Part shown: positions 538 through 12,900 of the stretch, piece after piece | Position numbering within the stretch: position 1 is the first letter of the stretch | How the letters are laid out: each line of letters opens with the position of its first letter | Source of the DNA: a virus | DNA length: 22,346 bases | IMG/VR virus record: IMGVR_UViG_3300048091_000036 | Span: 1-22,346 of that record | Strand: one strand, 5' to 3' | Position numbers and translations under genes: made by a program | Notes under the pieces: generated by a model | What the model was told of the DNA's origin: nothing | Seen by the model: only the letters and a program-made list of their open reading frames with translations | Databases searched by the model: none

Positions 538-541
538 CCCC

Positions 542-577
542 GCAGCGTTTCTACGCACCCTATCAAGGAAAGCTACA
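542..577 (+). repeat. Leader repeat copy 1 (hairpin plus ribosome-binding site)
   Basis: This intergenic segment closely matches 892-929. It starts GCAGCGTTTCTACGC, which contains GCGT-TTCT-ACGC, a 4-bp inverted repeat with a 4-base loop. It ends in AAGGAAAGCTACA, which holds the Shine-Dalgarno sequence and is identical in copy 2. It sits directly before the exported-protein gene at 580. It could be a duplicated promoter/RBS cassette or an mRNA processing site; I cannot tell which. Confidence 0.6.
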
Positions 578-1372: not shown

Positions 1373-1380
1373 CTAACAAA

Positions 1381-1556
1381 GCGGTGCCCGCCGATTGCAG
1401 ACGGGTAAAGGTGGGAGCAGTCCCGCCGCCGCATCAGCCATCTGATGGGCGCTCATCACAGCATTCGCGTTAGTTAACACGCGATAGGCTGGGTGCGGCA
1501 GAGCCATCAGCCAAACGTCAGGTAGGCGTGACAAGACGGGAGAGACCGTCCCTAGT
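1381..1556 (+). ncRNA. Candidate structured noncoding RNA or leader upstream of tRNA-Asn
   Basis: Between the stop at 1372 and the tRNA there are about 190 bases with no plausible gene but many short perfect hairpins: CCCG/CGGG (1387-1390 with 1402-1405), GGTGGGA/TCCCGCC with loop GCAG (1410-1427), CATCAG/CTGATG with loop CCAT (1432-1447), CGCGT/ACGCG (1466-1483), GTCA/TGAC (1517-1532) and GACGG/CCGTC (1535-1550). A longer pairing of GCGGTG at 1381-1386 with CGCCGC at 1426-1431 could close a three-way junction. CATCAGCCA occurs twice (1432-1440 and 1505-1513). I do not recognise a known RNA family, and no T-tract follows any hairpin. Confidence 0.4.
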
Positions 1557-1561
1557 TTCAT

Positions 1562-1637
1562 TGGGTTGTAGCTCAGTCGGTAGAGCAGCGCACTGTTAAT
1601 GCGCGTGTCGATGGTTCGAACCCATCCTTCCCAGCCA
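1562..1637 (+). tRNA. tRNA-Asn (anticodon GUU)
   Basis: A complete 76-nt cloverleaf. Acceptor strand TGGGTTG (1562-1568); D arm GCTC/GAGC; anticodon arm GCGCA-CTGTTAA-TGCGC, which is perfectly paired and has anticodon GTT; a five-base variable loop; T arm GATGG-TTCGAAC-CCATC; acceptor 3' strand CTTCCCA; discriminator G; and an encoded CCA ending at 1637. Discriminator G and GTT fit tRNA-Asn. The acceptor stem has two adjacent T-T mismatches (positions 5-68 and 6-67), which is unusual. It is probably a translation supplement for phage genes. A tRNA-derived attachment site is possible in principle, but no integrase is visible. Confidence 0.9.
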
Positions 1638-3809: not shown

Positions 3810-4052
3810 ATGGCCAAGCAGACCCAAGCTGAAAAGATCCTGAACCACATCCTCGTTCACGGCTCGATCACCCAGCGTGAAGCGTACATCGACTACTCGA
3901 TCCAGTCGTTCCATCGTCGCCTGACCGACATCAAGGACAGCGGCTACGAGCTGGTCGGCGTCAGCAAGCATCACCCGACCACGGGACAGGTCTACTCGCG
4001 TTACTACCTGCGAGGGACAGAACCGAAGAGCAACCCGCAGCTCAATGGCTAA
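3810..4052 (+). CDS. Winged-helix DNA-binding protein (HTH_39-like)
   Basis: An 80-residue protein whose residues about 6-65 fit a winged helix: a helix QAEKILNHILVHG, then SITQREAYIDY, the recognition helix SIQSFHRRLTDIKDSGYEL, and a wing VGVSKHHPTTGQVYSRYYL. This resembles the small HTH_39-type (PF14090) regulators found in phages and prophages. It is the first gene after a 60-bp gap holding a repeated motif, so it may head a transcription unit. The leader GAAAGCGAACTACACATG partly matches the leaders before 580 and 929. It overlaps the next gene by 8 bp. Target unknown. Confidence 0.75.
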   Translation: MAKQTQAEKILNHILVHGSITQREAYIDYSIQSFHRRLTDIKDSGYELVGVSKHHPTTGQVYSRYYLRGTEPKSNPQLNG

Positions 4053-4302
4053 GGCCGTGAAGAAACAGGTGGAGGCGGCGGGAGCCGCTTCTACCATCAC
4101 CGGAACGAAGGCCGACCTCGTCATCCTCGACGACGTGCCTAACTGCCTCAACTGCATGTACTCAGGTCCGCTGGACGTGAACCGCTTCATGCGCTGCGAC
4201 ATTCCGCTTCCTCCCTTCCTCCGACGCTCTGACCGCCCACAGGACTATCTAGTCCGTGCCGACAGCGTCTGTGCTTTGCACCAGCGATTGGACTTCCTAT
4301 GA
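4045..4302 (+). CDS. Small Cys-containing protein, possibly zinc-binding
   Basis: An 85-residue protein starting 8 bp inside the preceding gene. The N-terminal 25 residues are basic and low complexity (MAKAVKKQVEAAG). The remainder has CLNCMYSG at about 46-53, then MRCDIP and later SVCALH; these four cysteines and the histidine could form a single zinc site. I do not recognise the family. Its TGA overlaps the ATG of the following membrane protein. Confidence 0.65.
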   Translation: MAKAVKKQVEAAGAASTITGTKADLVILDDVPNCLNCMYSGPLDVNRFMRCDIPLPPFLRRSDRPQDYLVRADSVCALHQRLDFL

Positions 4303-4475
4303 CCATCACTCCCAAGCAAGTCGAAAACACTCAGACCGTCGTGACCGGCGCTCGCTCCGTGATCCCGTTCACAGGTGGCCTGCTCTTCGTCATCTATGCG
4401 TTCTTCTGGCCCGTCCAGTACGGCGCATGGCTCGGCTCCATCGTCGCATCCTTCCGCGCAGCGGCGGGGTTCTGA
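4299..4475 (+). CDS. Small one-span membrane protein (58 aa)
   Basis: Reads MTITPKQVENTQ..., with one hydrophobic segment of about 23 residues (FTGGLLFVIYAFFWPV through AWLGSIVASF) and a short basic C-terminus. The start overlaps the previous stop (ATGA) and the stop is followed two bases later by the next ATG, so it fits tightly into the gene string, which supports it being real. A small phage membrane protein could be a holin-like or membrane-targeting factor, but its position among replication-side genes does not favour a lysis role. Function unknown. Confidence 0.6.
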   Translation: MTITPKQVENTQTVVTGARSVIPFTGGLLFVIYAFFWPVQYGAWLGSIVASFRAAAGF

Positions 4476-12750: not shown

Positions 12751-12786
12751 CGAACACCTCCCGCGACAATTTCAGAACGTCCAAGC

Positions 12787-12817
12787 CCACCACGCACTGT
12801 GCGCAGTGTCTGTGTGG
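12787..12817 (+). other. Hairpin in the capsid leader region
   Basis: The 150-bp gap before the capsid gene holds CACTG-TGCG-CAGTG (12795-12808), a perfect 5-bp hairpin with a 4-base loop, flanked by CCAC (12787) and GTGG (12814) that can extend it across an internal loop. There is no T-tract, so it is not a standard terminator. It may be an mRNA processing or stability element for capsid mRNA. I see no gene in the gap. Confidence 0.35.
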
Positions 12818-12900
12818 AGAACTCGAATGGACTGTGAGCATCGCACTCACCCGCGCGTTTCAGCGCAACCATCCCTATATTTCTAAGGACTACAATTACT

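Follow-up and report, generated by a model that had tools for sequence, protein, structure and literature searches.

A structured noncoding block beside a phage tRNA-Asn gene lies where relatives carry hairpins linked to bacterial Abi_2 genes

Why does a phage genome that is otherwise almost gapless retain about 190 noncoding bases beside a tRNA gene? The window, that is, the whole stretch of 22,346 nucleotides that we analyzed, represents part of a T7-like phage genome (22 kb) and encodes primase/helicase, DNA polymerase, portal, capsid, and tail proteins, every one of these genes being on the plus strand. The closest relatives of its primase are from alphaproteobacterial phages. The phage is probably temperate; tyrosine integrases are encoded in its relatives L002, L003, and L005, and L002 is a prophage; on its left side, the junction was read by eye to lie in a tRNA-Cys gene (L101, about 14150, minus strand), within the part that encodes the anticodon loop. 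The block of interest (1373 to 1561) lies in the early operon between a gene for a 144-amino-acid hypothetical protein and a tRNA-Asn gene. The tight packing on which the original prediction of a function was based was borne out by the list of open reading frames (ORFs), in which one other sizeable unfilled gap, of ~150 nucleotides, precedes the capsid gene. The features of the block and its neighbor are as follows.

1373 to 1561, plus strand: noncoding structured block; no conserved frame, fold z-score -2.88
1381 to 1433, plus strand: 5' hairpin domain, from the fold, directly 3' of the upstream stop codon
1442 to 1510, minus strand: D2 hairpin, with arms at 1442-1448 and 1504-1510
1464 to 1484, plus strand: apical hairpin TTCGCGTTAGTTAACACGCGA, identical in relative L004 (21/21) between random linkers
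1498 to 1552, plus strand: 3' block of about 55 nucleotides, identical in L004, spanning the 3' arm of D2 plus two hairpins, GTCA/TGAC and GACGG/CCGTC
1562 to 1637, plus strand: tRNA-Asn (GTT) with encoded CCA, identical in L004

The block is real, noncoding, and structured. As had been proposed, it contains no plausible gene: stop codons break the plus-strand frames, and a 1-nucleotide indel in L004 shifts a 62-codon ORF on the minus strand. The tRNA-Asn beside it was likewise confirmed. All of the hairpins originally listed are present where they were said to be, but two of the pairings, GGTGGGA/TCCCGCC and GCGGTG/CGCCGC, are imperfect, as each includes a T.G wobble. The block holds seven perfect, nonoverlapping hairpins of at least 4 bp, compared with 3.9 ± 1.3 in shuffled sequences (2.6% of which reach seven) and 4.4 ± 1.2 in other 189-nucleotide windows of the genome (3.1% reach seven); its stems of 5 bp or more, three in number, are no excess, as 14% of shuffles reach that number. 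Its fold energy calculated with RNAfold is -75.6 kcal/mol (z = -2.88). A fold scan of the whole window gave a background mean z of -0.97 (standard deviation, 1.24), with values of -3.8 and -3.5 at starts 1321 and 1381. The block is thus a modest structural outlier, only moderately in excess of chance and within about the top 3% of the genome. In the same scan, the gap before the capsid gene (12751 to 12900) has a z-score near -4.

That the block matches no known RNA family also held true, since an Rfam search with gathering and permissive thresholds returned only the adjacent tRNA (1562 to 1637). A weak match to Twister-sister (E = 9.2) was rejected because the other core strand is missing. 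An intrinsic terminator was rejected as well, as the plus-strand hairpins have no U run after them, and a phage attachment (attP) or integration site is unlikely, given that the attachment site of the prophage relative L002 is in a tRNA-Cys gene elsewhere.

The same block sequence was found only in L004, the closest relative. Segment by segment, the identity between the two is 11/11 in the arm CTGATGGGCGC, 3/11 in the first inner strand, 21/21 in the apical hairpin, 3/13 in the second inner strand, and 54/54 in the 3' block. The linkers are thus at random identity, yet the arms and apical hairpin are unchanged. By itself, such identity is weak support for constraint because these mosaic genomes have other identical runs in common, in coding DNA, with lengths of 209, 59, 47, and 45 nucleotides, and we rejected the identical block of about 55 nucleotides as proof of constraint for the same reason. 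The longest run lies inside the primase gene (2006 to 2214 in the window and 5155 to 5363 in L004) and is a sign of recent exchange between the two phages. Lack of covariation was to count against a functional RNA under the original prediction, and the element common to the window and L004 indeed has zero compensatory pairs and no doubly changed pair, so that, taken alone, it speaks against that prediction. In this pair of sequences, the inner strands of D2 pair no better than shuffled ones (p about 0.2). A search for more relatives via neighboring proteins found none besides L002, L003, and L004; BLAST of GenBank phages with the block and the relatives' hairpins as queries gave nothing meaningful; and model R1, built from the window and L004, produced a single chance-level match in 385 bacterial genomes.

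A stronger result than any function of the window's own block is the hairpin family of its relatives. At the position of the 5' hairpin domain (1381 to 1433), L002 and L004 instead have a hairpin with a 9-bp arm, an internal loop of CUC opposite C, a UGC opposite GYA, and a variable apex. L004 has two such canonical hairpins, the second a few nucleotides 5' of the tRNA-Asn gene. Further copies were retrieved by a pattern scan of IMG/VR, and the covarying family with the CUC/C internal loop, to which no Rfam model corresponds, comprises the following phage hairpins.

L002, 3985-4036: one hairpin
L003, 967-1023: one hairpin
L004, 4018-4088 and 4210-4277: two hairpins
L175, 1535-1469, minus strand: one hairpin
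L215, 8914-8863, minus strand: one hairpin
L232, 3130-3197: one hairpin

The hairpins of these six phages have both a model match and covariation, with the qualification that the pattern used to retrieve those of L175, L215, and L232 had four arm bases and the core fixed, and that rows found by the model lean towards it. The covariation score of the family lies above all or nearly all shuffles (0/500 reach it) and vanishes on sliding, and G.U pairs are conserved. In addition, model R2 recovered the L003 copy, on which it had not been trained (E = 4e-10), and the flanks ACAYGG and GUCCUC, which were outside the search pattern, are common to the copies. A coding explanation, in which ATGGCNCGCGCCTCTGC could encode MARASA, was rejected because the apical lengths shift the frame and several copies contain stops or lack an ATG.

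The phage hairpins stand alone, also in unrelated phages, and lie mostly directly 3' of stop codons, with two of them immediately 5' of tRNA-Asn. One of the latter is in L175, a T7-like phage with an RNA polymerase gene, where the tRNA-Asn has the same mismatched acceptor stem as in the window (described below). The hairpins of L215 and L232/L211 are 3' of a gene for a 541- to 551-amino-acid protein. Two groups of further model matches were found. The first lies 3' of a capsid-like gene of another phage; the second overlaps the start of a spanin-like ORF and may be coding sequence that matches by chance.

L143, 2606-2558, minus strand: capsid-like group
L186, 1523-1571: capsid-like group
L122, 1348-1300, minus strand: spanin-like ORF group
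L173, 1426-1378, minus strand: spanin-like ORF group
L192, 4953-5001: spanin-like ORF group

The link between the window and this family is the D2 hairpin. Read on the minus strand, D2 is CTGATGG-CTC-TGC...GCG-C-CCATCAG, which is the CUC/C core of the relatives' hairpin; the combination of arm, CUC/C internal loop, and UGC/GYR step is present in D2 on that strand only, whereas all genes are on the plus strand. Of 3,151 inverted repeats in 816 kb, five have CTCTGC immediately inward of the arm, and all five are in the tRNA-Asn-adjacent blocks of three phages: one is D2 in its minus-strand reading, and the others are in the L002 and L004 blocks. The conservation of D2 between the window and L004 ends exactly at the borders of the CUC/C core. 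Covariance models R2 and R3, by which the family is defined here, did not match block 1373 to 1561 at any score on either strand with filters off. Because a canonical copy of the hairpin is absent from the window, a function of the window's own block can be proposed only through its relatives.

What the hairpin might do was suggested by its bacterial counterparts. In 385 alphaproteobacterial genomes, R2 gave two strong matches (E about 1e-9), each immediately 5' of, and codirectional with, a gene assigned to Abi_2 by Pfam and to AbiD by PADLOC, and both with a GUUUUC tail. We also picked six plasmid Abi_2 genes by protein similarity and then checked upstream of them for the hairpin. The model matched upstream of two (L252 and L254) and weakly upstream of a third (L255), with no model match upstream of the other three (L253, L256, and L257). 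The bacterial copies listed here have a GUUUUC or UUCUU tail.

L246, 1551-1501, minus strand: hairpin upstream of an Abi_2 gene, found with the covariance model
L247, 1501-1548: hairpin upstream of an Abi_2 gene, found with the covariance model
L252, 632-683: hairpin upstream of an Abi_2 gene (3e-10)
L254, 615-679: hairpin upstream of an Abi_2 gene (7e-6)

This arrangement resembles the AbiF system of Clostridioides difficile, in which RCd22, containing two abiF hairpins upstream of the gene, neutralizes AbiF in cis and in trans via direct binding and requires its stems but not their sequence (PMC12373285). The relatives' hairpin, as distinct from the window block, is like the abiF RNA (RF03085) and RCd22 in lying directly upstream of Abi_2 (AbiD/F) genes with a terminator-like tail in bacteria, and in conserving stem structure rather than sequence (PMC12373285). 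In contrast to the abiF RNA, the hairpins here are unmatched by RF03085 (no match at E up to 10 in the blocks of the window, L002, and L004, nor any at the Abi_2 loci, where the E limit was 5 or 1), and the phage copies stand alone, with no abi gene and no U tail. A search of 347 kb of phage sequence, some contigs of which are fragments, turned up no abi gene. An abiF-type hairpin has been reported in a phage genome before, the abiF small RNA of cyanophage S-CREM1, which differs from the hairpins here in its phage and host group and in matching RF03085; unlike the phage hairpins here, it has no link to tRNA-Asn that is apparent in the available part of that report (PMC9964418).

Taking the block and its relatives together, we favor, with a probability of about 0.4, the reading that the block represents the variable slot for RNA in a small counter-defense island composed of a structured RNA and tRNA-Asn, a slot that holds Abi_2-type hairpins in the relatives. 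The first proposal, of a structured RNA that is functional and connected with the tRNA, is plausible because arms and apical hairpin are conserved amid random linkers and the slot holds covarying hairpins in relatives; within the window/L004 element itself, no covariation was found. In the relatives, the slot carries one or two stand-alone hairpin RNAs whose bacterial counterparts immediately precede Abi_2 (AbiD/F) toxin genes. If RCd22 is taken as a guide, the early operon's transcript would include the phage copies, and, as RCd22 does in trans, the RNA would bind the host Abi protein so that it stays inactive. Copies of a toxin-neutralizing RNA that stand alone in phages are most simply explained by counter-defense. 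A comparable case, as described in the available text, is phage PhiTE, whose RNA mimics the ToxIN antitoxin and stands in for the host's toxin-neutralizing RNA (PMC3475682); replacement of a host antitoxin RNA by a phage RNA, shown there, is what we propose here, although the toxin family and RNA fold differ. The tRNA-Asn may replace tRNA damaged by defense nucleases, and it would fit such an island because phage tRNAs are reported, in the available portions of two sources, to evade tRNA-cutting defenses (PMC11555353, PMC10264068).

More broadly, it is possible, and we suggest it tentatively, that diverse phages carry stand-alone, antitoxin-like Abi_2 (AbiD/F) hairpin RNAs after stop codons and beside tRNA-Asn as RNA anti-defense genes, the window being a diverged member with the core on the opposite strand. 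If this is true, stand-alone regulatory hairpins in unrelated phages would constitute a class of phage RNA anti-defense genes overlooked by protein-based searches. AbiF-type systems are RNA-regulated HEPN toxins and have been linked to the origin of Cas13. The covariance model and the loci named above are supplied for testing the idea of RNA anti-defense.

As for the window itself, its block may have diverged and still function as an RNA, may serve as a processing spacer, or may be a relic. As an RNA-processing or insulating spacer, its hairpins would be cut (e.g., by host RNase III) or would shield ends, freeing the tRNA from the polycistronic early transcript. The location of hairpins directly after a stop codon and before a tRNA fits such a role, and there is a precedent in the early RNA of T7, which is processed at R1.1, a 60-nucleotide hairpin with an asymmetric 4/5-nucleotide internal loop that is a substrate of alphaproteobacterial RNase III (PMC6121014). 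The hairpins here resemble R1.1-type hairpins in being intergenic, in having asymmetric internal loops, and in occurring in a T7-type early region (PMC6121014), but their loop sizes and sequences differ, and the family here is tied to Abi_2 genes. Processing leaves unexplained the recurrence of the relatives' hairpin immediately 5' of Abi_2 genes and at other sites that lack a tRNA, and we regard this reading as unlikely, though the foremost competitor of the counter-defense slot.

Somewhat more doubtful is that an ancestor had Abi_2-type hairpins which the window lost, leaving a fast-changing spacer with no present function. Canonical hairpins number two in L004 and zero in the window, the linkers are at random identity, and the copy that precedes the tRNA in L004 differs from the window as a clean insertion/deletion, all of which would be expected of a relic; the identity of the arms, apical hairpin, and 3' block between random linkers would not, and phages rarely keep 190 idle bases. 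A DNA-level element, acting in hairpin form as a site of recombination or replication, was considered because the core occurs in both orientations, D2 being inverted relative to the relatives' hairpins; it is very improbable, as all other copies are on the gene strand with conserved G.U pairs, an RNA signature, and the L002 attachment site is elsewhere. The 62-amino-acid protein that the minus strand (1561 to 1373) could encode, in a frame open over the entire block, is nearly refuted, because the L004 indel breaks this frame within the best conserved part and the frame is antisense to all genes.

Several further observations concern the tRNA and the early region. The acceptor stem of the tRNA-Asn has two adjacent U.U mismatches in the window (1562-1637), L004 (4278-4353), and L175 (1395-1467, minus strand), and this mismatched tRNA occupies different genome places in the three. 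The apical hairpin loop of the block (1466-1483) holds GUUAA, the same as the anticodon loop of the neighboring tRNA-Asn; this may be an anticodon-arm look-alike or chance. Near the tRNA-Asn of L002 are a second structure, closed by a long stem (4041-4157), and a degenerate sequence that resembles a tRNA and has a T-arm (4245-4320). A gene absent from the window and ending in ...FTNQITNGGPPLAS (about 4717 in L004 and about 4750 in L002) has CCCCCTTTAGC immediately before its stop codon, where the -1 frame leads into a hydrophobic segment, and a programmed frameshift at CCCCCTTTAGC is possible. Lastly, a repeated leader, CAGCGTTYYTACGC...AAGGAAAGCTACA, perhaps a promoter or processing signal, lies ahead of early genes in the window (541-577 and 890-929), L004 (2780 and 3131), and L002 (3298).
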